From an uncultured Alcanivorax sp. (GTDB taxonomy: Bacteria > Pseudomonadota > Gammaproteobacteria > Pseudomonadales > Alcanivoracaceae), in assembly GCF_947258575.1 (NCBI RefSeq), contig NZ_CAMYIV010000003.1, forward strand, positions 186,001-250,000: a DNA stretch of 64,000 nt. Reading direction: 5' to 3'. The notes under the pieces were generated by a model. The model searched no databases, had not been told where the DNA came from, and saw only the letters and a program-made list of their open reading frames with translations. This document shows positions 27,833 through 62,358 of the stretch, piece by piece. A program made the translations under genes and the position numbers. Position 1 is the stretch's first letter. The number at the start of each line of letters is the position of its first letter.

Positions 27833-27982
27833 GCAGTTAACAGTGAACCGTGAATCGTTAACCGCTGCACGGAGAATTATTGTCATATCAGAACCGCAAG
27901 AGGCCGCGCCCATATCCTGGGCGCGGCCTCTTGCGGTTGGAAATAAGCTACCCTGATCGGGTCGCTGTTAACTGTTCACTGC
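27833..27982. repeat. Heptad-repeat element (AGTTAAC type), copy 1, overlapping the htpG stop
   Basis: The left arm reads AGTTAAC AGTGAAC CGTGAAT CGTTAAC. The centre is an 18-bp perfect hairpin (CCGCAAGAGGCCGCGCCC and its inverse, about 27894-27937), and the right arm is the shorter inverse of the left end. It is homologous to 62194-62358 (same TIR, same GAGGCCGCGCCC hairpin core). The htpG stop codon and its last four or five codons lie inside the right arm. The hairpin may serve as the htpG terminator, although no T run follows. Confidence 0.88.
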
Positions 27983-29821
27983 CTTCACCAGCATTTCCTG
28001 CAGGCGTCGCGCGGTGGCCGCCGGATCTTTAGGCAACTGCCCTTCTGCCAACATAGCCTGATCGAGCAGCAGCGCGGCCAGGTCGTCGAACCGATCGCCC
28101 TCTTCCATCCCGGCCAACGCCTGCAACAAACCGTGGCTCAGATTCACTTCCAGCACCGGCTTATTCTCCGGCGCCGGTTGCCCTGCCGCTTCCAGCATGC
28201 GGCGCATCTGTGGTCCCAACTGATCTTCGGCCAACACCAGACACGCCGGGGAATCCACCAGACGGGAGGTCGCCCGCACAGTTTCTACCCGTTCTGCCAG
28301 TATGCTGCCAAGACGGCCAATCAGCGGATTATCGTTATCAGCCTTGTCTGTCTCTTCACCCAGGTCCAGCTCGCCACGAGCCGCATTGACCAGCTTCACA
28401 TCCTTGTAGCTATCCAGGTAGCTGACCATCCACTCGTCCACCGGATCGCTGAGCAACAGCACCTCGATGCCCTTCTTGCGGAAGACTTCCAGATGGGGGC
28501 TGTTCTCTGCCGCTGACGGACTGTCAGCCAACAGATAATAAATCTTGTCCTGGTCAGCCGGCTTGTTCTCCAGGTACTGATCCAGCGACGTGGCCACCTT
28601 CCCCGGCTGATTGCTACTGGCAAAGCGCAACAGGGCGGCAACCGCTTCCTGATTGTCCCGGTCTTCGCCGATACCTTCCTTGATCACCTGACCAAACTGG
28701 GACCAGAAGGTGGCGTATTTTTCCTCATCATTGCCCAATTTCTTGAGCATCTGCAGCACCCGTTTGGTCAGCGCTGCACGGATTTTCTGTACCGGGCCAT
28801 AGTCCTGCAACAGCTCGCGGCTTACGTTCAGAGGCAAGTTCGGGGCATCAATCACACCCTTGATAAAACGCAGGTACTGGGGCAGAAACTGCTGCGCATC
28901 GTCCATGATAAAGACACGCTGCACATAGAGCTTAAGACCACGATTGGCTTCACGGTGATACAGATCAAAAGGTGCCCGGGCCGGTATGTAAAGCAGGCTG
29001 GTATATTCCAGCTTGCCCTCAACCTTGTTGTGACTCCAACTCAGCGCATCCTGAAAATCGTGGCTGATATGCTTGTAGAAATTCTGATATTCCTCGTCAC
29101 TGATCTCCTGACGGGGCCGCTGCCAGAGGGCCGTGGCGGAATTGAGGGTTTCTGTTTTTTCCTCCTCGTCGCCGTCTGCCGGGGTGACAAGCGTGATCGG
29201 AAAGGCGACGTGATCCGAATACTGGTTCACCACCTGACGCACCTTGAAGTCATCCAGAAACTCCCCGGCATCCTTGCGCAGATGCAGAATCACCGCCGTG
29301 CCCTGCTCTGTCCGGTCAATGGTCTCCACGGTAAACTCACCCTGGCCATCGCTTTCCCAGCGTACACCGGCGGAGACATCGGTACCGGCCTTGCGGCTTT
29401 CCACAGTTACCCTATCCGCGACAATGAATGCGGAATAGAAACCCACACCAAACTGACCGATCAGCTGGGCGTCCTTTTTCTGATCACCACTGAGCGAAGC
29501 GAGGAATTTTTCGGTGCCGGAACGGGCGATGGTGCCCAGGTTCTCGATCACCTCTTCCTCGTTCATGCCAATGCCGTTATCGGCGATGGTGAGGGTGCCC
29601 GCTTCCTTGTCTATCCGCAGGCTGATGGCCGGGTCGTTCCCTGACTCCAGTAACGACGGCTCATCCAGTGCCTTGAAACGCAGCTTGTCGCAGGCATCGG
29701 ACGCGTTGGAGATTAATTCACGAAGAAAGATTTCCCGGTTGCTATACAGGGAATGAATCATCAGGTGCAGCAGGCGGGATACTTCCGCCTGAAAACCATG
29801 GGTTTGTTTTTCTGCAGACAC
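27968..29821 (-). CDS. htpG: Molecular chaperone HtpG (Hsp90)
   Basis: This 617-aa ATP-dependent chaperone has the GHKL ATPase motifs: LISNASDACDKLRF, ADNGIGM and GQFGVGFYSAF. The middle domain with VFIMDDAQQFLPQYLRF and the C-terminal dimerisation domain follow. The start is GTG at 29821 with AGAGGAG six bases before it. The last codons (KAVNS and stop) are encoded by the arm of a heptad repeat element, which may have replaced the native C-terminus. Length is only slightly below the usual 624-640 aa. Confidence 0.96.
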   Translation of the reverse strand: MSAEKQTHGFQAEVSRLLHLMIHSLYSNREIFLRELISNASDACDKLRFKALDEPSLLESGNDPAISLRIDKEAGTLTIADNGIGMNEEEVIENLGTIARSGTEKFLASLSGDQKKDAQLIGQFGVGFYSAFIVADRVTVESRKAGTDVSAGVRWESDGQGEFTVETIDRTEQGTAVILHLRKDAGEFLDDFKVRQVVNQYSDHVAFPITLVTPADGDEEEKTETLNSATALWQRPRQEISDEEYQNFYKHISHDFQDALSWSHNKVEGKLEYTSLLYIPARAPFDLYHREANRGLKLYVQRVFIMDDAQQFLPQYLRFIKGVIDAPNLPLNVSRELLQDYGPVQKIRAALTKRVLQMLKKLGNDEEKYATFWSQFGQVIKEGIGEDRDNQEAVAALLRFASSNQPGKVATSLDQYLENKPADQDKIYYLLADSPSAAENSPHLEVFRKKGIEVLLLSDPVDEWMVSYLDSYKDVKLVNAARGELDLGEETDKADNDNPLIGRLGSILAERVETVRATSRLVDSPACLVLAEDQLGPQMRRMLEAAGQPAPENKPVLEVNLSHGLLQALAGMEEGDRFDDLAALLLDQAMLAEGQLPKDPAATARRLQEMLVKAVNS

Positions 29822-29893
29822 GGCTGACTCCTCTGGGTTTAATCACCCGGGAGTAATAGGGGCAGCCGTGTTTTTTTCAAGGGGGAACAGGGA

Positions 29894-30796
29894 TCAGCGC
29901 TTGATCTGATGAGCCAGGGCCGATCTCAGATCCGGAAAGCGGAACACGAAACCCTGTTGTTCCAGGCGCCGTGGGTAGACCCGCTGCCCGCCCAACAGGA
30001 TCTCTGACTGCTCGCCCAGGCCGGCTCGCAGGGCCACTGAGGGCACTCGCAGAAAAGCCGGACGCTTGACCGCACTTGCCAGGGATCGATGGAACTCACG
30101 CTGGGTAACAGGTGCCGGTGCCGTGGCATTGAACACTCCATCAATCCCCGGGGTTTCCACAGCCCGGACCAGAATCGCCACCATGTCGTCGATGTGGATC
30201 CAGCTCAACCACTGACTACCATCGCCGAGCATGGCACCAAACCCGAGCCGGTAAACCGGTAGCAGCTTGCCAAGCATGCCGCCATCACGGCCCAACACAA
30301 TACCGGTGCGCACCAGACACAACCGCACTCCCTGCCGGGACACTGGCCGTGCCGATTGCTCCCAGGCATCGCAGAGCAAGTAACCGAAATCACGCTTGCG
30401 GGCAGAGCTGTCTTCCGTCAGCTCCGCATTACCGGCATCCCCGTAGAAGCCCACCGCAGAGCCGGACACCATCACCGCCGGCTTGCGTTGCAATCTGGAG
30501 ACCAGTGCCACCAGACCCTGGGTAACACCTATACGGGAATCAAACAGCACCTTTTTGCGACGCTCCGTCCAGCGCCCGGCAAACAGGCTTTCGCCGGCCA
30601 GGTTGATAATGCCGTCGATAGGATCATCATCGGCAATATCATCCAGGGACGACACGATACGGGTTTCCTCCGGCAACAGCTTGGCGACCCGTCTCGGACG
30701 ACGACTGAGCACAACAAGATCGTGCCCATGGGCCGCCAGTCTCCGGCATAGGTGCTGGCCAATAAATCCACTGCCTCCGGTAATCAGTATCTTCAA
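29894..30796 (-). CDS. TIGR01777-family NAD-dependent epimerase (YfcH-like)
   Basis: The 300-aa extended SDR starts with ILITGGSGFIGQHLC and contains INLAGESLFAGRWTERRKKVLFDSRI and the SGSAVGFYGD segment diagnostic of the YfcH/SulA-like TIGR01777 group. The biochemical role of this group is unsettled. The start at 30796 overlaps the upstream membrane-protein gene (ATGA), so they are co-translated. Confidence 0.9.
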   Translation of the reverse strand: MKILITGGSGFIGQHLCRRLAAHGHDLVVLSRRPRRVAKLLPEETRIVSSLDDIADDDPIDGIINLAGESLFAGRWTERRKKVLFDSRIGVTQGLVALVSRLQRKPAVMVSGSAVGFYGDAGNAELTEDSSARKRDFGYLLCDAWEQSARPVSRQGVRLCLVRTGIVLGRDGGMLGKLLPVYRLGFGAMLGDGSQWLSWIHIDDMVAILVRAVETPGIDGVFNATAPAPVTQREFHRSLASAVKRPAFLRVPSVALRAGLGEQSEILLGGQRVYPRRLEQQGFVFRFPDLRSALAHQIKR

Positions 30797-32418
30797 CGTG
30801 CTGCCTCAACCTTTTGAATGCTGTTCATGTCATAGAAGTATTCGATGTTGCCTGCTCCCATCGCCACACTCAAGGTCAAATGATCCTCGGTGACCGCCTG
30901 CAAAATTCCTGTACGGGTGGCGACGCCACTGGCGGTGATAGTGACGGATTTACCCACCAGGGCACGGAGCTCCTTCAGTTTCGCAGAAATTTCCTCAACA
31001 GGCTCCTCTGCCTTACTGACCTGCTGCGACGGTTGTTCAACCCGAGGGTCATTGTCGTAGACAACCTCCGCCTCCCCGTTGCCGTCGCCTTCTGATACCA
31101 GATCAACCCGTTGCCCATTGGACAACGTCAGTGATTTGAGCTCCTCTGCGGACACACTGCGCTCCACATTACCGCTACCCACATTCATGACCAGCCATAA
31201 GCGGTCTCCGCTGACACGGCGCAGCACCCCTTCCAGCTCACGGCCACTGCGAGTTTCCAGCAGTACCTTTCTGTCCATATAGGCAACAAGCTCCGGAAAG
31301 GTCTTCTCCACGGGCGGCACGGCCTGTACCTGTTCTGAGGGCGACGTTTCGAAAACGGGGGATCTCAGGGTTGCGCTGCCCTCCCGCGGCGGAGTAATCA
31401 CCCGTGTTTCCATTGAGCCCGGGACCACGGCCCAACCCACTTCGCTCTTCTCCAGGCGCACATGCCGTTGTTCCACCGCACCGCTGGTCAAGACTACCTG
31501 GGACATTACCTGCCCAGTGGCCTCGGCGCGACGCAGCTGCACATGCTCCGCCTGCACGGATTCCAGCATCCCTTCCGGGAACTGGGTCGCCAGATACTCC
31601 TCTGCCACATAGGCGAGGGTGTCATCGTGGTCAAAATGCAAATCCACATTGCCATTACGATAGCGAAGATGATTGGAATACGCCGTGAAGTCACCGACCA
31701 GATAGCTTTTAAAGCTGTCCGGCATGACCAGCACCATGGAACCAGAAAGCTGATCAGTATCCAGCGGTGCCAACGCCAGCTCCAGACGGTAGCCACCGGA
31801 GAAAATGCGGGTTTCCGGATAGTCCTGCCCCTCCGGTTTCCAGGACAAATGCACCACCGGGGCCCCTTCATCGGATGGGTTCACCAGCATTGAACGGCGC
31901 TCGGTGATTGCTTCAGGGTCCCAACCCAGAAGAACGCGTACTTCCAGTTCCGGCAGGAAGCCTTTTCCCTGGCTGGCTGTCAGGACTCCGTCTATCAGCG
32001 CCACCCGGTCATAACGGAATTTTTTTCCATGCAAACGGCCAGACAGGGCTTTTCCCTGACCTTCTACAACCAGCAGCGCGGCCTCCTCAGAAGTCACAAA
32101 TGCAGTACTGGTGGCCATATTATCGCCCCGCAAAACCTGGCCCGCCTGCCCCGCCAGGTTTTGTCGGGGAGCCTGTTCCAGCGGGCTCTGCCCGGTTGCC
32201 AGAAACAGCGCTACCCCTACCGCCGCCGTCAGCAAAGACGCTACTCGCCCCAGCGCCCACCAGCGATATTCTTCCCAGTGCTGCTGCACCTGACCCAGGC
32301 TTGCCAGGGGTAACAGGAAAAACAAGGCACTGTGTCCCCGGCTACCCGCCTCGTGCATCAGGCCAAGGGTGCTGATGATGAAGCCACTTACCCCAATAAT
32401 GATCAGCAGTTCTGCCAT
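30793..32418 (-). CDS. Large membrane-anchored protein with two C-terminal Sm-like repeats, unknown function
   Basis: The 541-aa protein has two or three hydrophobic segments near the N-terminus (about 2-20, 31-45 and 58-75) and a long hydrophilic region that is probably periplasmic or cytoplasmic. The C-terminus contains two similar blocks of about 55 residues. One begins DRKVLLETRSGRELEGVLRR and the other GKSVTITASGVATRTGILQA; each is followed by DxLwL/TLS and NVGSGN/AMGAGN. These beta-rich repeats resemble small Sm/KOW-like barrels. A Pro/Glu-rich linker separates them. The gene overlaps the epimerase gene by 4 bases. I know no family name. Confidence 0.75.
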   Translation of the reverse strand: MAELLIIIGVSGFIISTLGLMHEAGSRGHSALFFLLPLASLGQVQQHWEEYRWWALGRVASLLTAAVGVALFLATGQSPLEQAPRQNLAGQAGQVLRGDNMATSTAFVTSEEAALLVVEGQGKALSGRLHGKKFRYDRVALIDGVLTASQGKGFLPELEVRVLLGWDPEAITERRSMLVNPSDEGAPVVHLSWKPEGQDYPETRIFSGGYRLELALAPLDTDQLSGSMVLVMPDSFKSYLVGDFTAYSNHLRYRNGNVDLHFDHDDTLAYVAEEYLATQFPEGMLESVQAEHVQLRRAEATGQVMSQVVLTSGAVEQRHVRLEKSEVGWAVVPGSMETRVITPPREGSATLRSPVFETSPSEQVQAVPPVEKTFPELVAYMDRKVLLETRSGRELEGVLRRVSGDRLWLVMNVGSGNVERSVSAEELKSLTLSNGQRVDLVSEGDGNGEAEVVYDNDPRVEQPSQQVSKAEEPVEEISAKLKELRALVGKSVTITASGVATRTGILQAVTEDHLTLSVAMGAGNIEYFYDMNSIQKVEAAR

Positions 32419-32917
32419 CTTCTTATTCTCTCAACAGATGATTCTCTCAACGGAGCGTTGAATACGCTTCCGTGAAGCGTTGTTGGCGCTTTTGCCCTGC
32501 TAGCCAGCAATACGCATATGGCCTCTGCAGATTCTCGGCCAAGGTAACCGGGTGGCTGCACAAGCCGCCCTGCGGGACACGCCGGAACAGGCTCTGCAGG
32601 CTCCAGACGGAAAGGTCATCCCGATGCCTCCACTTTACAAAGCCGGGGCCGGGCATTCCAGCACTTAAGTGACTGATTTTTCTATCCAGTGGCCAGGCAT
32701 GATCTCCATCACACTCCGCCCTGCGGCAGCCGGCCAGATCCGCTTGCTGCGCCGTCAGGTGCTCCAGCCACCACCACTTATCATCGGAAATAAAAAAAAA
32801 CTTGTAAGCGGGAAAATCTGGAGATATACAGGCGCTGAGGACGTTAGGAAACCGGTGCCCCGGACCTGACTAGCCGATTAACAGGTTGTTTGAGGAGGTC
32901 AGACACAGGAGGCCACC
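32419..32917. other. 500-base gap without supportable gene
   Basis: The stretch has short open frames on both strands (the longest about 69 codons, minus strand, 32447-32656) with no recognisable family and poor ribosome-binding sites. An A-rich tract lies at about 32789-32801. The last 45 bases hold the leader of the PA3496-like gene, with GGAGG before its start. A transcript on either strand is possible but not shown. Confidence 0.5.
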
Positions 32918-33154
32918 ATGAGTAACCATCGTAATGAGCAAGACCTTGATTCGGAAGATCTGCTGATGAACGAAGATTTCGATATCCTGGATGACGACGT
33001 GGACGATGAAGAACAAGAGGAACGCAGCGCGCGCTCCCGTGCGTTCAACATGGACATGCGTCATCGCATCGAAGATCGTCTGGAGGCCCGTCGCCTGAAA
33101 AAGGAACTCAACGAGTACGAGTTCTTCGATCTGGACGACGATATTCTCCACTGA
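32918..33154 (+). CDS. PA3496-family acidic small protein
   Basis: The 78-aa protein is very rich in Asp and Glu in its first half (for example DFDILDDDVDDEEQEE). It carries the family's C-terminal helix MRHRIEDRLEARRLKKELNEYEFFDLD, typical of the PA3496 family described as putative envelope-integrity proteins. GGAGG precedes the ATG. It stands alone, upstream of an inverted repeat and a bidirectional terminator. Confidence 0.85.
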   Translation: MSNHRNEQDLDSEDLLMNEDFDILDDDVDDEEQEERSARSRAFNMDMRHRIEDRLEARRLKKELNEYEFFDLDDDILH

Positions 33155-33165
33155 AGGGCGCTGCT

Positions 33166-33256
33166 CACACTATTTCTATGGCCCCTGTGGAGGGTTCAAA
33201 CCGGGAGGAAAAGGCTGACCCCTTTTCCCACTGCCAGAGACTATAGAAATAGTGTG
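33166..33256. repeat. 91-base inverted repeat, perfect 14-bp arms with inner hairpin
   Basis: The arms CACACTATTTCTAT and ATAGAAATAGTGTG are perfect complements at each end. Inside, GGAAAAGG and CCTTTTCC form a second stem around a CTGACC loop. No transposase is near and no other copy is seen in the window. It could be a small mobile repeat or a structured 3' end of the PA3496-like transcript. Confidence 0.75.
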
Positions 33257-33268
33257 GGCAAACCCCAC

Positions 33269-33299
33269 AAAAAAGGCCGGCGAAATGCCGGCCTTTTTT
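33269..33299. terminator. Bidirectional intrinsic terminator between the PA3496-like gene and sucD
   Basis: AAAAAAGGCCGGC and GCCGGCCTTTTTT surround a 5-base loop, giving T runs on both strands. It can serve the PA3496-like gene and the sucCD end alike. Confidence 0.92.
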
Positions 33300-33320
33300 G
33301 TGTATCAGCGAAGGATTGTA

Positions 33321-35362: not shown

Positions 35363-35433
35363 GCCAATACTTCCATATCAATGAATGAGTGGCGCCCGTC
35401 TGGACGCCGTCACTTCGCGACCGTTCTGCGGCG

Positions 35434-36876
<1,443 letters not shown>

Positions 36877-36891: not shown

Positions 36892-36958
36892 CTGGCACGC
36901 TTCACGCAACACGCTGGCACGCCCTTAGCGTGGTTGCGTGCCAACGTGATGCGTGCAG
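36892..36958. repeat. Short heptad-periodic inverted repeat between sucB and lpdG
   Basis: The left half contains CACGC at 7-8-base spacing (CACGCTT CACGCAA CACGCTGG CACGCCC). The right half is its inverse (GCGTGGT TGCGTGC and so on), so a hairpin forms across 67 bases inside the operon. It resembles the other heptad elements of the window in period but is shorter. It may modulate the sucB/lpdG transcript ratio. Confidence 0.7.
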
Positions 36959-36966: not shown

Positions 36967-38226
36967 TCAGATATCCAGCAGCAAACGCGCCGGATCTTCG
37001 ATAAAGTTCTTCACTGCCACCAGGAACTGCACCGCTTCCTTGCCATCGATCAAACGGTGGTCGTAGGACAGCGCCAGGTACATCATCGGCAGGATTTCCA
37101 CCTTGCCGTCCACCGCCATGGGGCGCTCCTGGATTTTGTGCATGCCAAGGATGGCCGTCTGCGGCGGGTTGAGGATCGGTGTGGAAATCAGTGACCCAAA
37201 TACCCCGCCATTGGAAATGGTGAAGGTGCCACCGGTCATTTCCTCGATGGAGAGCTTGCCCTTCTGAGCTTTCTGGCCGTACTCGATGATCTGGGATTCC
37301 ACTTCCGCCAGACCGCGCTGGTCTGCATCACGAATCACCGGAACCACCAGACCTCGCTCGGTGGACACCGCCACACCCACGTCGTAGTAACCGTGGTAGA
37401 CAATGTCCTCGCCATCGATGGACGCATTCACTGCCGGGAACCGTTTCAACGCTTCCACACAGGCACGGGTGAAGAAGCCCATGAAGCCCAGGCGCACGTT
37501 GTGGGCCTTTTCAAATTCCGGCTGGTAATGCTTGCGCATATCCATGATCGGTTTCATGTTGACCTCGTTGAAGGTGGTCAACATGGCGGAGTTCTGCTGG
37601 GCAGACACCAGTCGCTCGGCGATACGCTTGCGCAGACGGGTCATGGGAACCCGACGCTCTTCGCGTTCACCCGGCGTTGCCGGTACATCCAGGGTAGCCG
37701 GCTGCTGCGGTGCCGGTTGACTGGCCCGCTTCTCTTCCTTGTCGCTGATGGTTTTTTCCACGTCCGCCTTGGTGATGCGGCCGCCTTTGCCGGTGCCGGT
37801 CACTTGGGCAGCGGCAACGCCATGTTCGGTCATCAGCTTGCGCGCCGCCGGGCCGGCCTGGTCCGACGCGCTGTCGTCGTCGCTGGCTGCCTCATTGGCG
37901 GGCGCCTTTTCTGCTGTCGAAGCCTCTTCTTTCTGCTCCGCCGGAGCCGAATCGGCCTTGTCACCACCAGATGACGCCGAACCGCTGGCGCCCTCTTCGA
38001 AATGACCCAGCACTTGCTGGCTCTCAACGGTATCGCCTTCAGCTGCGAGAATCTTGCTGACTACACCGTCAGCCGGTGCCACTACTTCCAGCACCACCTT
38101 GTCGGTTTCGATGTCCACCAGCAGCTCATCACGCTTGACCGCTTCGCCTTCCTGTTTGTGCCAGGTGGCTACGGTGCCGTCCGCTACTGATTCGGGAAAC
38201 TGCGGAGCTTTGATATCAGTCGCCAT
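36967..38226 (-). CDS. sucB: 2-oxoglutarate dehydrogenase E2, dihydrolipoyllysine succinyltransferase
   Basis: The 419-aa protein has one lipoyl domain (residues 1-77, lipoyl lysine in ETDKVVLEV), an Ala/Glu/Ser-rich linker, the peripheral subunit-binding domain ([10 protein letters not shown] with [12 protein letters not shown]) and the catalytic domain ending [16 protein letters not shown], with the catalytic His. It is the core of the 2-oxoglutarate dehydrogenase complex. sucA lies 13 bases upstream. Confidence 0.97.
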
Positions 38227-46532: not shown

Positions 46533-46703
46533 TTTTTACCACAGAGGGCACAGAGCTCACTGAGTAAAACCTTTTCTTTTCAGAGGCAAAAGAGTACTGC
46601 TTGCCATGGCGAATTAATTAGCTATTTGTATAACGTTTTTCCAGAAAACCTGCAGCTGTAATATCTTTTCCTCAGTGAACTCTGTGCTCTCTGTGAAAAA
46701 ACA
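46533..46703. repeat. Inverted-repeat element with 9-bp periodic CACAGAGGG arms, copy 2
   Basis: The left arm reads CACAGAGGG CACAGAGCT CACTGAGTA; the right arm reads CTCAGTGAA CTCTGTGCT CTCTGTGAA. The interior of about 95 bases is AT-rich and unlike that of copy 1 (16735-16875), so only the arms are conserved. Confidence 0.85.
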
Positions 46704-53363: not shown

Positions 53364-53368
53364 CTATA

Positions 53369-53444
53369 TGGCGTCCCCTAGGGGAGTCGAACCCCTGTTA
53401 CCGCCGTGAAAGGGCGGTGTCCTGGGCCACTAGACGAAGGGGAC
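53369..53444 (-). tRNA. tRNA-Glu (anticodon TTC)
   Basis: The 76-base cloverleaf begins GTCCCCTTCGTCTAG and has the anticodon loop CTTTCA (TTC anticodon), the T loop GGTTCGAC and an encoded CCA end. It is nearly identical to the E. coli tRNA-Glu. It lies downstream of gltX and tRNA-Ala in the same direction. Confidence 0.97.
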
Positions 53445-53449
53445 GTATT

Positions 53450-53525
53450 TGGTGGAGCCAGGCGGGATCGAACCGCCGACCTCAACACTGCCAGTGTTGC
53501 GCTCTCCCAGCTGAGCTATGGCCCC
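53450..53525 (-). tRNA. tRNA-Ala (anticodon GGC)
   Basis: The 76-base cloverleaf begins GGGGCCATAGCTCAGC. The anticodon loop CTGGCAG gives anticodon GGC, followed by the T loop GGTTCGATC and an encoded CCA. Five bases separate it from tRNA-Glu. Confidence 0.97.
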
Positions 53526-53675: not shown

Positions 53676-53832
53676 CTAGCTTCTAGCTTCTAGCTTCTAG
53701 CTTCTAGCTTCTAGCTTCTAGCTTCTAGCTTCTAGCTTCTAGCTTTCAGGATGATGCCCCTCCCCGGAAGGGGCACAAGCTCATCAGCACGCTTTCTGTT
53801 TTCTGGTAGCTAGCAGCTAGAAGCTCGCAGCT
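53676..53832. repeat. Heptad-repeat element (CTAGCTT type) with ten perfect tandem units and central hairpin
   Basis: Ten perfect copies of CTAGCTT run from 53676 to 53745. The centre contains TGCCCCT / AGGGGCA hairpin arms (53755-53775). On the minus strand the right arm reads AGCTGCG AGCTTCT AGCTGCT AGCTACC, four inverted heptads (53805-53832). The gltX stop TAG and its last codons lie inside that arm. The ten-copy array is prone to slippage. Confidence 0.93.
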
Positions 53833-55304
53833 ATCTCCCGGTAAGCCTTCTCCAGCTTCTTCATCTGCTTCTTGGACACCCCGCCCAGCACCTCGATAGC
53901 GTTACGCAGGCGGGCGCGGCTCAGGTCGGCGCCGATGATTTCCATGGAATCCACCACCGAGAAGCTGGCGCTGGTGCCGGCAATGGCAACGAAGGCCGGG
54001 AACAGGAAATCCTTGATCTTCACTTCCAGGGCATCGGCAATGGCCTTGGCATCCGCAAACAGGCCGTCACGGTTCCAGTCACTGCGGGCTTCATAGGTCC
54101 ACAGCAGGTACTGCAGCCACACCTTCATGTCCTCGGCACCGTACTGCTTGTGCTCGAAACTGGCCTCGCTGATCGCCGGCATGCCGTTGAAACAGAAGGC
54201 CGCCTTGTCCGCCACGTCCGACAAGGTTTCCACCCGCTGGCGCAGGTGAGGGATGATCTTCATGGCGTAATCGCGGTTGTAGGCCCAGTCCAACAAGGTA
54301 TCCAGGAACTGCTCGTCACTCTGCTCACGCAGCCATTGCCCGTTCAGCCAGCTCAGCTTTTCCACATCAAAGACCGGGCCGCCCAGGGACACCCGGTTGA
54401 TATCGAAGGCGTCCTGCATTTGTGCCAGGGTGAATTTCTCACTCTCGTCCGGCATGGACCAGCCCATCCGCCCCAGGTAATTCACCAGCGCTTCCGGCAG
54501 GTAGCCCATGCGCTGATAGAACAGGATGCTGGTGGGGTTCTTGCGCTTGCTGAGCTTGGATTTGTCCGGGTTGCGCAGCAGCGGCATATGGCAGAGCACC
54601 GGCATCTCCCAACCGAAATACTCGTACAGCAGCTTGTGCTTGGGCGCGGAGTTCAGCCATTCCTCACCACGGATCACGTGGGTGATCTCCATCAGGTGAT
54701 CGTCGACGATATTGGCCAGATGATACGTAGGCATGCCGTCGGACTTGAGCAGGATCTGCGCATCCACCAGCGCCCAGTCCAGCTCCACGGTACCGCGCAG
54801 CATGTCCTCGATTTCACAGCGACCATCGGTGGGCACACGCATGCGGATCACGTAGGGCGCCCCTTCCGCTTCCCGCTTTGCCTGCTCTTCGGCGGGTAGC
54901 TCCAGATCCATCGGCTTCAGCGCCCGGTTCTCGCCCTGCTCTTTCAGCTCGGCACGCAGGGTGTCCAGCTCTTCACTGGTGCGGTAGCACTTGAAGGCAT
55001 GGCCCTTCCCAATCAGCGCCTGCGCATACTCCGCATACATATGCTTGCGTTCGCTCTGCCGATACGGGCCATGGGGGCCGCCCACATCCGGGCCTTCATC
55101 CCAGCTCAGCCCCAGCCACTTGAGCGAATCCAGAATCATCTGCTCGGACTGATCAGTGGAGCGGGTCTGGTCCGTATCTTCAATACGCAGAATGAACTGG
55201 CCACCGTGCTGGTGGGCAAAGCAGCGATTGAACAGGGCGATATAGGCGGTGCCTACGTGGGGGTCACCGGTGGGCGACGGCGCTACGCGAGTACGGACGG
55301 TCAT
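53817..55304 (-). CDS. gltX: Glutamyl-tRNA synthetase
   Basis: The 495-aa class I synthetase has the HIGH-like motif in [12 protein letters not shown] and KLSKR as its KMSKS counterpart. It contains the zinc-free connective peptide region and the C-terminal anticodon-binding part. The protein ends YREIAASF; the last few residues fall in the arm of the CTAGCTT-type heptad element. It is followed on the same strand by tRNA-Ala and tRNA-Glu. The start at 55304 is preceded by AGTCAGC, with weak ribosome-binding match. Confidence 0.96.
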
Positions 55305-56027: not shown

Positions 56028-56030
56028 GCA

Positions 56031-56107
56031 TCAAACGCCGGACGTCGGACGTCGGACGCTAGAAGGATTTGTCTTTCCGCGTCAAACGTCCGGCCAAGCC
56101 TCAGGCG
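56031..56107. repeat. Heptad-repeat element (CGGACGT type) between convergent genes
   Basis: Three heptads CGGACGT CGGACGT CGGACGC follow the stop of the DUF4399 gene. The other side has the inverted segment GTCAAACGTCCGGC and ends GGCGTT, abutting the ynfA stop TAA. About 77 bases lie between the two convergent genes, so it may act as a bidirectional terminator. Confidence 0.72.
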
Positions 56108-56443
56108 TTATCCTATCTGCCGAGGCGCAAGCATGATGATCGCCATCCCCGTCAGCGCCACCAGCGACCCGACAATATCCCAGCCCGTGGGACGAATACC
56201 GTCAACGCCCCACAACCAGAGAATGGCCACGAAAATATACACGCCTCCATAGGCCGCATAGACCCGCCCCGCCGCTGTGGGGTGCAAAGACAGCAGCCAG
56301 GCAAAGGCCGCCAGACTCAACGCAGCTGGAATCAACAGCCAGACGGATTTCCCCTCACGAAGCCACAGATAAGGCAAATAACAGCCCACGATCTCGGCAA
56401 CCGCCGTGATCAGAAACAACCCCAGAATCTTCAACTCCGGCAA
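56108..56443 (-). CDS. ynfA: YnfA/UPF0060-family membrane protein
   Basis: The 111-aa protein has four membrane helices and the family signature [20 protein letters not shown], then [22 protein letters not shown]. Relatives belong to the small drug/metabolite transporter group. The start is TTG at 56443 with GGGAGG six bases before it; the longer frame adds 39 residues that overlap the DksA-like gene region. Confidence 0.92.
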
Positions 56444-56538
56444 GGAGACCTCCCGATATATCGTCAGATCAACACACCGCAACGCACCAGCGGAGCAAAG
56501 CATGTAGAGAGTACAAAGAGTGAACCGAAAGCTCAGGC

Positions 56539-56883
56539 CTATTCGCGGGCACTGGCGCACTCAAGGCAGAACAGGGTGGCGGGATCAATCTCGAGACGTC
56601 TGGGATTGACAGGCTTGCCGCAATCCTCGCAGTAGCCGTAATCATCCTCATCAATACGGCGAAGGGCGGCAACAAGCTGGCGCATCCGCTGTTGCTGACG
56701 CTGGCGGGTTGCCAGGGCCATGGCCTGGCCCTGCATGGCATCCATCCGCGACAGACGCCCGACGCTTTGCTGATCCAGCTCCACCGGTTTGGTGGCTGAA
56801 TCGGCCTCATCATTCTTTTCGCCTAATGCCTGTTTCTCTTCCAGCAATTTCAGGCGAAAACGTTCCTGTTCTGCCTGCTCCAT
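56539..56883 (-). CDS. DksA/TraR-type C4 zinc-finger protein
   Basis: The 114-aa protein has a helical N-terminal half and the C4 zinc finger [26 protein letters not shown] near the end. The coiled-coil tip lacks the two acidic residues arrangement of DksA and reads [10 protein letters not shown], so RNA polymerase action may differ. The ATG at 56883 has GGGGGAG before it. Its position next to uspA fits a stress role. Confidence 0.85.
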
Positions 56884-56939
56884 TTGGCTCCCCCAGGGGA
56901 CAAGAACCCCGGCGCAATCAACCTCGCCGGGGTACATGC

Positions 56940-57788
56940 TTATCGCAGCAACAAATGCGGTACCGTGGCGTTCTTGATCATCTTGCTGGTGGTGCTGCCC
57001 ACGAAGAACTCGCGGATACGGGAATGGCCGTAGGCCCCCATCACCACCATATCAATGCCGTTATCCTGCTGGTATTCATGCAAGGCGGGCTCCACGTCAC
57101 CTTCCAGTTGCGCCACTTCCACCTCGTGACCGGATTTCTCCAGGGTGTCGCGAGCCCAGGCCAGATCCTCGCTCAGCTGTTTGTCCTTGCCTACGGCAAC
57201 CAGGTGACAAGGCAAGCCCAGGAACAGCGGGCTGGCGGCCAGCATTTTCACGCCGTCACGGCAGGTTGGGCTGCCATCGAAGGCCAGCATGATTTTGCCG
57301 GGCTCGGTAAAATCGGACGGCACCACCAGAATCGGCTTGTGCATGGTGCGAATCACCTGCTCCACGTGGTCGCCCACCTGCTCAGCCTCGCCGGTGTGTT
57401 CCTCTCCCAGTTTGCCGATCACCAGGATGCGGGTTTCTTCCTGCATACCCGCCAGGGTCTCCACCAGACCGCCGTGACGCTGGCGCTGCTTGGGTTCGCT
57501 CACCCCTTTTTCGATGGCGCGACCGGCAGCAGCTTCCAGCATCAGCTTGCCCTGCTCCAGGGCCAGCTTGTTGCGTTTGGCATCCAGTTCGGACAGTTCG
57601 GTGAGCAGGGATTCGCGGCCACCCAGCAACAGGTTACCGCTCAAATCACTTTCCACCGGGTAGCGGGAATGGTCCAGCACATGCAGCAGGGTCAGCGGTG
57701 CATTCAAACGCTGCACCGCCCAGACCGCATAATCACAAACCCGGGCCGCGGCCGGAGAGCCATCAATACAGGCAATAACATCACTCAT
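56940..57788 (-). CDS. Tandem universal stress protein
   Basis: The 282-aa protein has two Usp domains (about 1-155 and 160-282). The second keeps GAYGHSRIREFFVGSTTSKMI with the nucleotide-binding G2XG9GS pattern; the first is more diverged. It lies 12 bases downstream of the sulP transporter gene on the same strand, a pairing also seen in other marine bacteria. Confidence 0.9.
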   Translation of the reverse strand: MSDVIACIDGSPAAARVCDYAVWAVQRLNAPLTLLHVLDHSRYPVESDLSGNLLLGGRESLLTELSELDAKRNKLALEQGKLMLEAAAGRAIEKGVSEPKQRQRHGGLVETLAGMQEETRILVIGKLGEEHTGEAEQVGDHVEQVIRTMHKPILVVPSDFTEPGKIMLAFDGSPTCRDGVKMLAASPLFLGLPCHLVAVGKDKQLSEDLAWARDTLEKSGHEVEVAQLEGDVEPALHEYQQDNGIDMVVMGAYGHSRIREFFVGSTTSKMIKNATVPHLLLR

Positions 57789-57800
57789 TGTTCTTCTCCT

Positions 57801-59285
57801 TTAGTGGCCGCCCATGAGTTTTTCGACCGCCTCGGGCTTGTCGTGCACGGCAAATTTATCCACCAGGGTGGCACTGGCCTCGTTCAGGCCGATCAGCTCC
57901 ACCTCAGTACCTTCACGGCGGAACTTGATGATCACCTTGTCCAGCGCACCAATGGCAGTGATATCCCAGAAATGGGAACGGTGCACATCGATAGTCACTT
58001 TATCCAGTGCTTCCTTGAAATCAAAGGAGGCAATGAACTGATCTGCGGAGGTGAAAAATACCTGCCCCAGGACCTCGTAGCGGCGGTGGCTGCTGTCAGT
58101 TTCATCAAGATCCGAGCGCACATAGAAAACGCGCCCCACCTTGTTTGCATAGAACAGCGCACTCAGTACCACCCCGATGCCAACACCAATGGCCAGGTTA
58201 TGGGTCGCCACGGTGGCCGACACCGTAGCCAGCATCACCACGGTGCTGCTCGCCGGATGCTTGGCCATGTTGGTAATGGACTCCCAGCTGAAGGTACCAA
58301 TGGACACCATGATCATCACCGCCACCAGCGCGGCCATGGGAATCCGGGACACCCATTCACCCAGGAACACCACCAGCACCAGCAGGAAGCAACCGGCAAA
58401 CAAGGTGGACAGGCGCTTGCGGCCACCGGATTTCACGTTGATCACGGACTGGCCGATCATGGCACACCCGGCCATCCCCCCCAGGAACCCGGAGAAAATG
58501 TTGGCCACGCCCTGCCCTTTGCATTCGCGGTTCTTGTCGCTATCGGTATCGGTTAGATCATCCACGATGGTTGCCGTCATCATGGATTCCAGCAAGCCCA
58601 CCACCGCCAGAGCCAATGAGTACGGCAGAATGATCTTGAGGGTTTCCAGATTCAGTGGAATATCCGGCAGCAGGAACATAGGCAAGCTATCCGGCAAATC
58701 GCCCTTATCCCCTACCGTGGGCACATCCAGGCCCAGATACATGGCAATACCGGTAATCACGACAATACAGATCAGCGGGGATGGCACGGCAGTGGTCAGC
58801 AGCGGCAGCAAATAAATGATCCCCAGACCAGCGACCACCATGGCATACACATGCCAGGTTACCCCGGCCAGCTCCGGCAGCTGGGCCATGAAGATGAGAA
58901 TCGCCAGCGCATTCACAAACCCGGTCACCACGGACCGGGAGACAAAACGCATGAGATTCCCGAGCTGCAGAAAGCCAGCAACAATCTGCAACACACCGGT
59001 CAACACCGTTGCCGCCAGCAGATATTGCAGGCCATGGTCTTTCACCAGGGTCACCATCACCAGCGCCATGGCCCCGGTTGCCGCCGAAACCATCCCCGGG
59101 CGACCGCCCACAAAAGCAATAACAACGGCGATACAGAACGACGCGTACAACCCCACCTTGGGGTCCACACCGGCAATGATGGAAAAGGCAATCGCCTCGG
59201 GAATCAGGGCCAGGGCAACAACGGAACCAGCCAGCAAATCACCACGGATATTGCTGAACCATTCCTGCTGAATAGATCGAAGCAT
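57801..59285 (-). CDS. SulP-family anion transporter with STAS domain
   Basis: The 494-aa protein has the SulP membrane domain ([37 protein letters not shown], then [20 protein letters not shown]) and a C-terminal STAS domain ([15 protein letters not shown]). Relatives include bicarbonate and sulfate transporters. The length and N-terminus resemble the BicA-like/SulP-1 type, which suggests bicarbonate uptake. The ATG at 59285 has AGGA upstream; longer frames add 29 unlikely residues. Co-transcribed with the Usp gene. Confidence 0.9.
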
Positions 59286-59569
59286 GAAGAACAATCCTGT
59301 TTTGGAAATACGACAGACAAAGAGGCTGCGCGCGGGCAGCAGAACACGGGATGACATGGCGCGGGGCACCATACGGCAAAGCCGGAGACGGGCTGTCTAC
59401 TAGGGCGGACTCAGCCGAGGGAGGGTCATGAACAGTCTCGAGTGATTCGGAAAGGCGCGGAGTCTAGCAGAGCTCGCACAGCTTTGACAGGCAACGCCGC
59501 CGCTCACCCTACGCCGCAGCGCCGCAACATGCGACAATAGCTGCCCCAATGCCCCTGCTATCGCCTTGC

Positions 59570-60568
59570 ATGAATGACTCTCTGATCCAAACAGCCCCGT
59601 TGTCACAACCAGACCGACGCCTGTCCGTGGCACCGATGATGGACTGGACCACCCGGGACTACCGGTTTCTGGCCCGGCTGATTACCCGCCACACCCTGCT
59701 CTACACCGAAATGGTGGTGGCCCAGGCGATTCTGCGCGGCGATCGTGACCGTTTTCTTGCCTTCAATGACGAAGAACATCCGGTGGCGCTTCAACTGGGC
59801 GGCTGCGAGCCGCAGGATCTGGCGGAAGCGGCCCGGATCGCCGAGCAATACGGGTACGACGAGATCAATCTCAATGTGGGCTGCCCGTCGGATCGGGTAC
59901 AGCAGGGCAAGATCGGCGCCATTCTGATGGCCGAGCCGGAATTGGTGGGCCAGTGCGTGGAGGCCATGCAGGCGACGGTCCGCGTGCCGGTGACGGTGAA
60001 AACCCGCATCGGCATTGATGACCAGGATGATTACGACTTTCTCTACCGGTTTGTGGCCCGCATGGAACAGGCCGGTTGTACCAGCCTCACCATCCATGCC
60101 CGCAAGGCCATCCTGTCCGGGCTGTCACCCAAGGAGAACCGGGAGATTCCACCGCTGATCTACCAGCGGGCCTACGCCATCAAACAGGCCTTTGCCCATA
60201 TGGAGATCATTCTCAACGGCGGCGTGAAGACACTGGATGAGGTGCACGAACACATGGGCGACGTGGATGGCGTGATGATTGGTCGCGAGGCCTACCAGAA
60301 CCCCTATTTCCTGGCCGATGCGGATCGCATCGTGTTCGCGGATGAGCACCCCGTGCCAACCCGACGGGAAATCGCCGAACAGTTTATGCCCTATGTGGAA
60401 CGCCGTTACGCGCTGGGCCATGCCCCCAAGCATTCCCTGCGCCATATCCTCAACCTGTTTCAGGGCGAACCGGGCGCCCGCCGCTTCCGCCGCCACCTGA
60501 GCGAAAACATGCACAAGCCGGACACCACGCCGCAAGTGCTCATGGACGCTTTGGCACAACTGCCTTAG
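59570..60568 (+). CDS. dusA: tRNA-dihydrouridine(20/20a) synthase
   Basis: The 332-aa flavoprotein reduces U20/U20a of tRNA. It has RLSVAPMMDWTTRDYRF near the start, NLNVGCPSDRVQQGKIGA with the catalytic Cys, and VMIGREAYQNPY for FMN binding. Two in-frame ATGs (59549 and 59570) lack a clear ribosome-binding site; I took the second. It stands alone and is followed by a repeat element. Confidence 0.93.
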   Translation: MNDSLIQTAPLSQPDRRLSVAPMMDWTTRDYRFLARLITRHTLLYTEMVVAQAILRGDRDRFLAFNDEEHPVALQLGGCEPQDLAEAARIAEQYGYDEINLNVGCPSDRVQQGKIGAILMAEPELVGQCVEAMQATVRVPVTVKTRIGIDDQDDYDFLYRFVARMEQAGCTSLTIHARKAILSGLSPKENREIPPLIYQRAYAIKQAFAHMEIILNGGVKTLDEVHEHMGDVDGVMIGREAYQNPYFLADADRIVFADEHPVPTRREIAEQFMPYVERRYALGHAPKHSLRHILNLFQGEPGARRFRRHLSENMHKPDTTPQVLMDALAQLP

Positions 60569-60590
60569 CCTGTGGGTATCTATATACGTT

Positions 60591-60751
60591 GTAGGAGCGG
60601 CGCTCGAGCCGCGAATAAAACAGTTTCGAGTTACGAGTAGCGAGTTTCGAAAGGCAAAACCGATGTGGGTTTTCGCAACTCGTAACTCGCTCCTCGTAAC
60701 TTGGAAAATTCGCCGCTCATACCCGCAGGGCACAGAGAACGCCGCTCCTAC
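60591..60751. repeat. Composite repeat: GTAGGAGCGGCG terminal inverted repeats around CGAGTTA heptad arms and a central hairpin
   Basis: The outer 12-bp arms GTAGGAGCGGCG and CGCCGCTCCTAC are perfect complements. Inside lie the heptads CGAGTTA CGAGTAG CGAGTTT (60627-60647) and their inverse GTAACTC-type units (60674-60703), flanking AAAACC / GGGTTTT. The outer arms resemble the CGCTCCTAC ends of Pseudomonas REP sequences. The element is 161 bases long. Confidence 0.88.
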
Positions 60752-60823
60752 GGCACAGAAAGCCCCCTGTCATAGTTGGCCTTTACCCTGTCGCCAGCCA
60801 TGACACTGAAAGGAACGGATACC

Positions 60824-61774
60824 GTGAACAAACGCGAACAGCTAGCCCAATGGACCTCCCTGGTAGCCGATACCGGTGATCTGGACATGATCGCCGAACT
60901 GGCGCCGGAGGATGCCACCACGAACCCTTCCCTGCTGCTGGCAGCGGCCCGTGACGAGCGTTACCGGCCCATGCTGCAACAGGCAGCGGACCTGTGCCGC
61001 GCCCTGGGTCATGGCGGCGAGATGGACTGGCTGACGGACTGCTATGCCTGCCTGGCCGGTCAGGCCATCCTTGAGCGGGTGCCGGGCCTGGTTTCCAGTG
61101 AAGTGGACGCGCGCCTGTCTTTCGATACCCGCGCCACCGTGGAAAAAGCGCGTCGGCTGATGGCCATCTACCGGGAACTGGACGTGGACCCGGCACGCAT
61201 CCTTATCAAGACGGCGGCCACCTGGGAAGGCATCCGCGCGGTGGAAGTGCTGGAAGAAGAAGGCACCCGCTGCAACGTGACCCTGGTCTTCAACCAGACC
61301 CAGGGCCTGGCCGCTGCGGAAGCCGGCGCCACGCTGATCTCTCCCTTTGTGGGCCGCATCTTCGATTGGCACCGCAAACAGGGCATGAACATCGCCACCC
61401 CGGATGACGACCCGGGCGTACAGTCGGTTCGCCAGATCTACCGCACCTTCAAGGCGCGCGGCCTGGAGACCATCGTGATGGGCGCCAGCTTTCGCAACGC
61501 CGGCCAGATCGAAGCCCTGGCCGGCTGCGACAAGCTCACTATCAGCCCGGCCCTGCTGGGGGAACTGGCCGCCGATACCGGTAGTCTGACTCAAGTACTG
61601 GATGCGGAGCTGGTGGCCCCGGAAGACGATTGGCACGCCGTCACCGAGGCCGCCTTCCGCTGGCAACTCAATGATGATGCCATGGCCAGTGACCTGCTTG
61701 CCGATGGCATCCGCCGCTTCGCCAAAGACCAAGTGGCGCTGGAAACCCTATTGCAGGAGGAAGGTGTAATTTGA
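60824..61774 (+). CDS. tal: Transaldolase
   Basis: The 316-aa enzyme transfers dihydroxyacetone units in the pentose phosphate pathway. It shows PEDATTNPSLLLAA at the N-terminus and the Schiff-base lysine in ILIKTAATWEG (about Lys129). The start is GTG at 60824, with AAAGGA nine bases before it; other in-frame starts upstream are weaker. The stop overlaps the TTG start of the TerB-like gene. Confidence 0.95.
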   Translation: MNKREQLAQWTSLVADTGDLDMIAELAPEDATTNPSLLLAAARDERYRPMLQQAADLCRALGHGGEMDWLTDCYACLAGQAILERVPGLVSSEVDARLSFDTRATVEKARRLMAIYRELDVDPARILIKTAATWEGIRAVEVLEEEGTRCNVTLVFNQTQGLAAAEAGATLISPFVGRIFDWHRKQGMNIATPDDDPGVQSVRQIYRTFKARGLETIVMGASFRNAGQIEALAGCDKLTISPALLGELAADTGSLTQVLDAELVAPEDDWHAVTEAAFRWQLNDDAMASDLLADGIRRFAKDQVALETLLQEEGVI

Positions 61775-62208
61775 ATTGGTTGAACCGACTCTTTCGCCCC
61801 GATCAGCCTCAACAGCAGACCAGCGAGCACGACCTGCACCGGGCGGCCGCCGCCCTGCTGCTGGAGGTGGCACGCACCGACGGCACGGTGGACCCGACAG
61901 AGTCACAACGTCTGATCCAGGCGGTGGAAAAACGCTGGCACCTGGACCGACAGGAAATGGATGACATCCTCACAGAACTGGAAAACCGCGTGGACGAAGC
62001 CACCGATCTGTTCGAGTTCACCCGCCCGCTGCGCGATCACTGGGGACCGGAACCGAGAGTCACCTTGATCGAGGAAATGTGGGCCATGGCCGCCGCCGAC
62101 GGCCACGCCGATGTCCACGAAGAACACCTGATCCGCCGTGTCAGCGACCTGCTGTATGTGTCGCATGGGGACTATATTCGGGCGAAACTGAAAGCAGTGA
62201 ACAGTTAA
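61771..62208 (+). CDS. TerB-like protein
   Basis: The 145-aa protein has the TerB-type helical pattern LHRAAAALLLEVARTDGTVDPTESQRL and a second helix block with EEMWAMAAADGHADVHEEHLIRRVSDLL. Acidic residues in both blocks could bind metal. The start is TTG at 61771, overlapping the tal stop, with GGAGG upstream. The last codons (KAVNS) and the stop are supplied by the arm of the repeat element at 62194-62358, so the native C-terminus may have been replaced. Confidence 0.87.
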   Translation: MNWLNRLFRPDQPQQQTSEHDLHRAAAALLLEVARTDGTVDPTESQRLIQAVEKRWHLDRQEMDDILTELENRVDEATDLFEFTRPLRDHWGPEPRVTLIEEMWAMAAADGHADVHEEHLIRRVSDLLYVSHGDYIRAKLKAVNS

Positions 62209-62358
62209 CAGTGAATAGTTAACGGCTGCGCGAGTAGAGTTTGTCTTTATTTTCATGCAATGAGGCCGCGCCCAACTGATGGGCGCGGCCTCATACGTTT
62301 AAAACCTGAAACACGCCTGACGCGCGCTGTTCACTGTTAACTATTCACTGTTAACTGC
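62194..62358. repeat. Heptad-repeat element (AGTTAAC type), copy 2, overlapping the terB-like stop and abutting the mlaA stop
   Basis: The left arm has AGTGAAC AGTTAAC AGTGAAT AGTTAAC; the right arm is the inverse. The central hairpin is GAGGCCGCGCCCA ... TGGGCGCGGCCTC. The 5' part GTTAACgGCTGC matches GTTAACcGCTGC of copy 1 (27833-27982). It lies between two convergent genes: the terB-like stop is inside, the mlaA stop two bases outside. Confidence 0.9.

Follow-up and report, generated by a model that had tools for sequence, protein, structure and literature searches.

Intergenic elements built from tandem seven-nucleotide units (heptads) were examined in a 64,000-nucleotide stretch of DNA from an uncultured Alcanivorax sp. 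(RefSeq assembly GCF_947258575.1, contig NZ_CAMYIV010000003.1, positions 186,001 to 250,000; hereafter the window), and followed into the rest of this 3.5-Mb, 13-contig genome (the source genome) and into other genomes. The closest named relatives of a window protein were Alcanivorax species, with A. jadensis T9 at 95%. Two of the elements, near positions 27833 and 62194, belong to a family, here called F1, in which inverted heptad arms enclose a central hairpin, and which differs in orientation between species. Their features and neighbouring genes are given below; the gene names htpG, gltX, TerB-like, MlaA/VacJ-like and rluC-like are our presumed identifications.

26732-27799, minus strand: gene next to the F1 element at 27833
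27835..27980, unstranded: F1 element between htpG and the next gene; core hairpin 27900-27930
27968-29821, minus strand: presumably htpG; 3' end inside the F1 arm (...KAVNS*)
61771-62208, plus strand: gene for a presumably TerB-like protein
62196..62356, unstranded: F1 element between the convergent TerB-like and MlaA/VacJ-like genes; core hairpin 62262-62292; inverted relative to the related genome G005
62196..62223, plus strand: left arm of this element, four AGTKAAY heptads; carries the stop codon of the left gene
62329..62356, minus strand: right arm of this element, four inverted heptads
62361-63149, minus strand: gene for a presumably MlaA/VacJ-like lipoprotein

Architecture of the F1 family

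In the DNA examined from the source genome, 68 F1 copies were found, 56 through the core hairpin and 12 through paired arms (65 with a different redundancy filter). Alignment of 23 sequences gave the layout GGC-(AGTKAAY)4-AGC-CGCG, a variable spacer of ~25 bp and the hairpin AAACGCAAGAGGCCGCGYCC with its complement, followed by the mirror image. The central hairpin (GAGGCCGCG) is flanked by T-rich tails on either side, and its pattern occurred at 59 places in the genome, every one on both strands (control, 0). Arm statistics were taken from the 83 of 112 arms that could be anchored; these held 332 units, of which 312 fitting AGTKAAY at 5 or more of 7 positions were used, a selection by loose consensus match, and 20 were excluded. 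Positions 1, 3, 5 and 6 of the 312 units were fixed at 96–99% and position 2 was G in 93%, with variation centred on positions 4 (T/G) and 7 (C/T). Many of the 26 paired-arm elements had four intact units per arm and others had two or three; at 27833 the right arm has only two intact heptads, which corrects the original prediction. Other heptads were present in 3 of the 25 core elements of the first set, AATTAAT-like at loci L120 and L128 and CAAGCTN at L129; they were concordant in both arms at L120 and L129, and the arms at L128 were short and degenerate.

Heptads of this kind could be protein-binding iterons, read for example by a ribbon-helix-helix or single-stranded-DNA-binding protein, in elements that serve as chromosome-organising or recombination sites and are flipped by a dedicated recombinase. 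The conservation of most unit positions, the two-state positions that vary independently of the partner arm and the frequent number of four units per arm are in keeping with this, and omega of pSM19035 is a ribbon-helix-helix protein that reads tandem unspaced heptads. We nevertheless regard it as very unlikely, as the many heptad types within one genus, and even at one site (see below), would need many proteins.

Inversion of F1 elements between species

The flanks of elements of the source genome were paired with loci of relatives, and the intervening stretch was aligned locally in both orientations. The relatives' loci had mostly been picked for holding F1 hits, and losses were therefore not countable. 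Compared to G005 (flanks 82–97% identical), 17 of 26 pairs showed the same orientation, 5 were inverted and 4 were unrelated, so that 5 of 22 resolved pairs were inverted. The inverted pairs scored 107–128 reversed and 19–35 forward, relative to a background of 435 pairs of different source elements with maxima of 72 forward and 68 reversed. Six pairs with G010 comprised 2 of the same orientation, 1 inverted (108 reversed, 30 forward; 1 of 3 resolved), 1 near-symmetrical and 2 unrelated; eight pairs with G002 comprised 4 of the same orientation and 4 unrelated; and both pairs with G009 were under the threshold (one at 58 forward, threshold 63).

The comparison was repeated with a threshold of 68 and more genome pairs. 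Source and G005 now gave 16 same, 5 inverted and 4 unrelated of 25, and G011 and G007 gave 8 same, 1 inverted and 1 unrelated (1 of 9 resolved inverted). One inverted case each was also seen between G007 and G008 (81 versus 43; 1 same, 1 unrelated; 1 of 2 resolved inverted) and between G005 and G002, at the site of source locus L121 (2 same, 3 unrelated). Counts were 1 same and 2 unrelated for G011 and G008; 2 same, 1 ambiguous and 2 unrelated for G005 and G010; 2 same and 4 unrelated for G005 and G011; and 1 same and 5 unrelated for G005 and G007.

In the alignments of inverted pairs, arms and interior were turned jointly, and homology stopped at about the outer edge of the arms. At 62194, the order of unit variants in the right arm was that of the left arm in G005. 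The reversed alignment of the source element scored 128 with G005, and inversion was also seen, with weaker scores, against G007 (78) and G011 (72). Since G005 is oriented like both G007 and G011, the flip most likely took place in the lineage of the source genome. Elements at the same site in A. jadensis and strain DP30 were 88% identical reversed and 71% forward, with flanking genes at 67–81%; all 325 reversed comparisons among source interiors fell below 79%. As in an inverton, a segment bounded by inverted repeats is thus present, between species, in both orientations at one site. Judged by these alignments, whole F1 elements, arms included, have been inverted in place between species.

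Gene-end position, stop codons and the core hairpin

Among 26 F1 elements with both flanks, 15 lay between convergent genes, 10 between tandem genes and 1 between divergent genes, beside the presumed rluC-like gene. These orientations came from automatic calls of open reading frames (ORFs), with four sites re-read by hand, which reduced the divergent cases from four to one. In the sample described below, gene pairs separated by at least 120 bp were, on crude ORF calls, convergent in 43, tandem in 69 and divergent in 38 cases. At 39 of 40 flanking gene ends the stop codon fell no further than 20 bp inside or 12 bp outside the edge of the element (345 bp off at the remaining one). In the window, HtpG and the TerB-like protein share the C-terminus ...KAVNS, encoded by the F1 arm. 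Reading inwards, all three frames were closed inside the 28-bp arm in 61 of 83 F1 arms; reading outwards, in 0 of 83. All-frame closure occurred in 16% of shuffled arms and 0.4% of genomic 28-mers, and inward stops in all frames were also present in CTAGCTT and AATTGAT arms. We infer that the arms may serve as translational stops.

A T-rich tail (TTGCGTTT) follows the stem on both strands; the 9 bases after the stem contained 4.59 T in 56 cores, versus 2.33 in spacers. RNAalifold predicted 27 pairs, with changes on both sides in 7 of them. From these features the core hairpin is likely to be a two-way terminator.

Other heptad elements and the period-7 signal

The window holds further heptad elements of unlike sequence:

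35434-36873 and 36967-38226, both minus strand: genes flanking the heptads at 36892
36892..36958, unstranded: degenerate CACGCNN heptads, inverted orientation, between two same-strand genes; the array passes the scan threshold at this site in two relatives only
53372-53525, minus strand: two tRNA genes
53676..53832, unstranded: element of a second kind (F2) between gltX and the two tRNA genes; CTAGCTT x10 at 53676-53745, hairpin at ~53756-53774, short mixed inverted arm to 53832
53817-55304, minus strand: presumably gltX
56031..56107, unstranded: CGGACGT heptads; array at 56035-56058, weak inverted partner
60588..60757, unstranded: two inverted GTAGGAGCGGCG repetitive extragenic palindromes (REPs) with a CGAGTNN heptad palindrome as spacer, together a REP doublet forming a hairpin (REPIN)
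60627..60701, unstranded: CGAGTNN arms and hairpin within the REPIN; left arm 60627-60649, right arm 60674-60701

Folding z-scores were -11.0 as RNA and -11.7 as DNA for the 62194 element, -4.0 for 53676 and -9.6 for 60591. At Rfam gathering scores the elements matched no family, and the only hits in the window were the two tRNAs. Integron attC sites and DNA uptake sequences were also considered as possible identities and set aside.

Period 7 was assessed by a lag scan of 464 kb (the window and 20 further pieces of the source genome, each of 20 kb), in which regions had at least 16 of 21 matches. Lag 7 gave 34 regions versus 1 in one order-2 Markov shuffle. Lags divisible by neither 3 nor 7 gave 0–2 regions (0–1 at lags 4, 5, 8, 10, 11 and 13); lags 6, 9, 12, 15 and 18 gave 6, 11, 12, 6 and 5, as coding DNA is expected to give a signal at multiples of three; and lags 14 and 21 gave 24 and 9. 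Five of the six heptad places named at the outset were recovered by an unbiased lag-7 scan of the window (27830, 53666/53791, 56026, 60621 and 62185/62322). The sixth, 36892, was under the threshold of that scan in the window, and arrays at the same site exceeded it in G011 and G007. The proposed layout of arm, hairpin and inverted arm was visible at 27833, 53676, 60591 and 62194, with corrections to 27833 (above) and 60591, which is a REPIN; 56031, contrary to the earlier description, has a single clear arm, its top inverted partner scoring 11 against a cut-off of 14.

Whole-genome searches returned 43 places for CAGTTAACAGTGAA (reversed control, 0), 89 overlapping matches for CTAGCTTCTAGCTT with at most 1 mismatch (reversed control, 0) and 116 for CGAGTTACGAGTTACGAG with at most 3 mismatches (control, 1), the last revealing long CGAGCTA arrays, many at contig ends. 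The CGGACGT search was weak, with 9 places versus 3 for the reversed control. Partners were sought within 260 bp of an array and with a score of at least 14, in inverted, direct and reversed-control versions. An inverted partner was found for 23 of the 34 arrays of the sample (direct, 0; reversed control, 0) and for 51 of 62 arrays in 469 kb of relatives (direct, 2; reversed control, 0). A complement control scored in 22 of the relatives' 62 arrays, probably because of near-symmetrical units of the GTTYAAA type. Arrays without a partner included long homogeneous ones of the CTAGCTT/CGAGCTA type and one-armed F1 copies. Contigs C1, C5, C6, C8, C9, C10 and C11 of the source assembly start or stop in CTAGCTT- or CGAGCTA-type heptads, and such arrays therefore probably exceed read length and break assembly.

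Exchange of elements and heptad types at fixed sites

The heptads at the 62194 site are AGTKAAY, AGTKGAY, AATTGAT or AATTAAT according to species, and those at the gltX end CTAGCTT, CTTCGAG, GTTYAAA, CAAGTTA or a REPIN with CGAGTTG. Between the window and DP30, the gltX sites agree in the right arm and, to a lesser degree, in the interior, where 70 of 100 aligned bases are identical (52 of 121 columns in a reverse-complement control); their left arms are homogeneous yet unlike (CTAGCTT x10 in the window, a CTTCGAG unit ~x7 in DP30). By these site comparisons, heptad types have been exchanged at fixed sites between species. Near window position 46700, where the window itself has no array, G011, G007 and G008 have long TAGC-type arrays; in two of these genomes the array is made up of blocks with two different units.

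The htpG site was compared in 17 genomes. F1-type elements were present in 10, REP-type sequence in G002, G010 and G012, and no F1 in G004 and G015; the arrangement in G013 was unclear, and the contig of G016 stops there. In G004 the element is missing, ~15 bp of the gene end differ too, and no target-site duplication, as expected of a miniature inverted-repeat transposable element with clean empty sites, was seen by eye. The unit order of the left arm was common to seven genomes (L162–L168), with flanks 80–85% identical where measured. Species thus differ in whether a site is occupied, by which heptads and in which orientation; the cases are not all ancestral and fixed, a state that the original prediction had named as a refutation.

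Two cases suggested how an element may be replaced. Loci L086 and L087, from two genomes, are ~98% identical up to the 62194 site, then differ over ~5 kb (73–95% per 250 bp, ~85%), and return to ~98%; the diverged tract (~10.4–15.3 kb) starts at the heptad element, the pattern of DNA imported by recombination with one breakpoint in that place. At 27833, A. jadensis and the window are 100% identical on one side and 93% on the other, and REP-type sequence replaces F1. Exchange of elements by homologous import would account for both shifts in flank identity, and two cases do not make a rule.

Relation to REPINs and Y1 transposases

The original prediction had proposed a REP-associated tyrosine transposase (RAYT) as a possible mover, and the element at 60591 is indeed a REPIN, with GTAG-tagged inverted REPs (GTAGGAGCG...) at both ends enclosing the spacer. 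Similar GTAGGAGCG sequences stand beside Y1 transposase genes at L138, L142, L148 and other loci (six genomes), and A. jadensis has a REP pair without heptads at the 60591 site. The proposal fits only the CGAGTNN type, which lies inside REPINs. F1 itself could likewise be a REPIN-like mobile element moved in trans by a Y1 transposase (RAYT), with opposite orientations as independent insertions. Y1 transposase matches are widespread, in 70 of 94 genomes searched, with two in the source genome (one under the family cut-off); CGAGTNN palindromes within REPINs stand beside RAYT genes at L142 and L148; and G015, which alone in the genus gave no Y1 match, has no F1 triplets either.

Against this, F1 heptads were found near 0 of 23 Y1 loci of six genomes, within ~1.5 kb at the scan threshold. 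The GTAG tag occurred within 15 bp outside F1 ends in 1 of 52 cases, unlike in REPINs, whose REPs carry a GTAG or CGTC tag, and the alignment of 23 F1 sequences showed heptad arms, a CGCG box and one central hairpin, not two REP palindromes. Inverted pairs are, moreover, homologous throughout and lie between the same two genes, which would require the same sequence to insert there twice. Numbers of F1 hits and Y1 matches in 17 genomes of the genus were not significantly correlated (Spearman 0.42, P = 0.09), although some link may exist. On the Y1 loci, counts and GTAG tags, a RAYT as the mover of F1 was not supported, and we consider this explanation quite unlikely.

Two further arrays were seen in G007: at L156 (~700–1300), six or more GTAGGAGCGGTCG REP units form an array beside a Y1 transposase gene, and at L155 (240–342), a further heptad unit, CGGAGCC ~x12, lies near a Y1 transposase gene.

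Heptad elements in other bacteria and known systems

Triplets of AGTKAAY were found in 23 of 94 genomes and 2 of 54 genera, with 0 to 368 hits within the genus. F1 hits did not correlate with contig number (rho -0.18, P = 0.50); low counts in some fragmented genomes may reflect assembly loss, and in one metagenome-assembled genome the 62194 site is masked by consecutive N. Four units of AAGCTNN were found in 7 of 369 gammaproteobacterial genomes including the source genome (reversed control, 1). A search for four units of GGGANTN was unspecific (11 of 369 genomes versus 17 for the reversed control) and shows only that G-rich heptads recur, in either reading. Outside the genus, 52 arrays from a few loci per genome in 17 genomes had, at a score of at least 16, an inverted partner in 24 cases, a direct one in 12 and a reversed-control one in 2. 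Inverted partners occurred in G422, G168, G338, G177, G300, G216, G457, G285, G360 and G378, and were not found at the inspected loci of G129, G193, G292, G424, G214, G366 and G238 at this score; in G238 a pair under the scan threshold is visible at another locus. Inverted pairs in other families mean that the layout is not peculiar to Alcanivorax, and direct arrays are common elsewhere. Many period-7 arrays with varied units and direct neighbours were seen at L204 and L197 of G366, a 0.4-Mb, AT-rich and highly reduced genome.

The original prediction had attributed the shared period to a common process and not to common sequence ancestry. The first part is likely to hold, given unlike units that share the period and inverted pairs of other units in nine further families of Gammaproteobacteria (ten genomes). 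The second fails for 27833 and 62194, as at least 65 copies in the source genome share arms or hairpin. The same observations bear on whether the elements are functionless by-products of slippage, in which gene-end hairpins stall the polymerase, slips occur in steps of seven and template switching copies units to the other arm. This explanation has in its favour that other families also show period 7 with units of unlike sequence, that some arrays consist of two blocks with different units, and that there are long homogeneous arrays, a number of the arrays standing at contig ends. Heptads were also the most abundant long simple repeats in most of the genomes of Mrazek (2007), and a polymerase-contact idea has been advanced for them (as cited in excerpts of PMC4679880 and PMC4692102). 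It leaves unexplained the common unit, CGCG box and hairpin sequence of at least 65 copies, the focus of variation on two of seven positions, and the left-arm unit order common to seven genomes at the htpG site; we find it unlikely.

Heptad repeats as such have precedents. The short tandemly repeated repetitive (STRR) sequences of cyanobacteria are intergenic heptad repeats, and the present elements resemble heptameric intergenic repeats in being tandem, of at least two units, dispersed and often of four units. Paired arms around hairpins had been thought not to be a described class. This holds in part: excerpts of Rehm et al. (2015; PMC4692102) already describe 70 and 75 close convergent pairs of heptad repeats in two Xanthomonas genomes. 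As excerpted there, the GGGAATC repeats are mostly intergenic, most with four units, and heterogeneous with conserved positions; their mean distance from the ORF that lies 5' of them is 28 nt, they are under-represented between divergent genes (7–8%), and the convergent pairs, mostly between the same genes in the two species, vary in sequence and length, their function being left open. F1 is like them in its tandem intergenic heptads, common four-unit arms and inverted pairs (PMC4692102). However, the Xanthomonas preference for four units is tied to G-quadruplexes (PMC4692102, as excerpted), whereas an F1 unit contains only isolated G, one or two of them, and four units are common all the same; no run of GGG occurs in AGTKAAY, CTAGCTT or CGAGTNN. 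The core hairpin, stop-codon overlap and inversion are F1 features without a description in the excerpts of Rehm et al. (PMC4692102), whose text does not contain the word 'inversion'.

Further comparisons also rest on excerpts of the cited papers. The TAACTGA repeats of Beggiatoaceae and cyanobacteria (MacGregor 2015, PMC4679880) are intergenic, and their unit resembles AGTTAAC on the other strand; they are direct and mostly just before start codons, with one indirect repeat, whereas F1 forms inverted pairs at gene ends. REPINs (PMC3116915, PMC3733652) are, like F1, extragenic with inverted conserved ends around a hairpin-forming spacer, but F1 elements generally lack the GTAG tag, their two ends are not REP palindromes, and none was seen beside RAYT genes. 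The BrickBuilt miniature inverted-repeat transposable element of Porphyromonas gingivalis (PMC4596501) likewise has a tandem repeat in a small intergenic inverted-repeat element; its 23-nt units form an array between leader and tail subunits, whereas in F1 the arrays themselves are the inverted arms. Invertons (PMC5903667) are, like F1, short intergenic segments with short inverted repeats that invert, but they are recombinase-catalysed and alter transcription or translation of neighbours, whereas F1 comprises many symmetrical elements at the ends of housekeeping genes. Matches in PubMed Central (PMC) to the 12-mer GTTAACAGTGAA were only in papers on unrelated subjects, judged by title and start of abstract. 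Inverted heptad pairs are thus already known from Xanthomonas, and the new part is the in-place inversion of F1, of which no description was found in the open PMC literature. In simulations with 150-bp reads, a 100-bp inversion gave no detected reads (excerpt of PMC5903667), and the blindness of short reads to inversions of ~100 bp may explain why such elements were missed.

F1 elements as probable gene-end cassettes

We consider it fairly probable, from the comparisons above, that F1 elements are orientation-neutral gene-end cassettes, with stop codons and a two-way terminator-like hairpin, that can be flipped by way of their inverted arms. The first arm met from a neighbouring gene would close its reading frame, in most arms in any frame. 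Transcription from both directions would end at the central hairpin, which is bordered by a T-rich tail on each side. The two halves would do equal work, so that reversal of the cassette would alter little for its neighbours. Exact arm matches in flipped pairs are 10–31 bp; homologous recombination usually requires longer matches than several of these. Strand exchange or template switching between the arms of the single-stranded palindrome is the most likely cause of the flip. Replication slippage, with period 7 favoured, would add, remove and homogenise heptads, as the homogeneous but unlike left arms of the window and DP30 at gltX suggest, homologous recombination would occasionally swap elements between strains, as the two cases above suggest, and the initial distribution over the genome is assumed to go back to an old spread by some mobiliser.

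Several observations weigh against this reading of F1. Exact arm matches were not clearly longer in flipped than in unflipped elements (means of 18 and 20.6 versus 16 and 16 bp, n = 5 versus 17). In 18 elements, the two arms shared unit order no more than random pairs did (33 versus 32.4 expected, P = 0.48). What is conserved is therefore not a base-by-base match between the arms, and unit-by-unit copying from arm to arm was not supported for F1 on the same ground. A stricter fixed-window rule gave 15 same, 4 inverted and 7 unrelated pairs between source and G005; such fixed-trim comparison misreads pairs with insertions or deletions, and the final counts are those from local alignment. At larger distances, 7 of 8 source pairs with G011 and 8 of 9 with G007 were unrelated, with 1 inverted in each (threshold 68), and persistence of one element by descent is therefore limited. 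Several elements in the same orientation are also closer to each other than their flanks, for example with 0 mismatches in 120 and flanks at 93%, which simple neutral cassettes do not predict; such elements at L222, L220, L241 and L003 had 0–4 mismatches in 120 relative to G005, with flanks 86–93% identical.

The proposed functions meet objections too. Only 3 of the 15 predicted pairs in the core hairpin changed on both sides, and the covariation term was small. A strict terminator scan of 46–64 kb made no call at the 62194 hairpin, and terminator-like sites in this region were not above shuffles (12 versus 15.9). CGGACGT, CGAGCTA, CGAGTTA and the Xanthomonas GGGAATC units close zero frames inwards, and all-frame closure is therefore no general property of heptad arms.

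A bolder generalisation, which we hold to be doubtful, is that paired heptad arms would be a general bacterial device that makes gene-end hairpins freely invertible, possibly read by a recombinase; thousands of read-length inversions would then have been missed across Gammaproteobacteria, and the arms would also mark the ends of imported tracts. Heptameric repeats have long been noted in bacteria, and their function is unsettled. The four-unit inverted layout without G-tracts argues against the G-quadruplex as its general reason, and in-place inversion gives heptad elements a definite behaviour that can be tested. Frequent flipping would make tens of small palindromes at the ends of housekeeping genes structurally unstable, perhaps unreported by short-read surveys.

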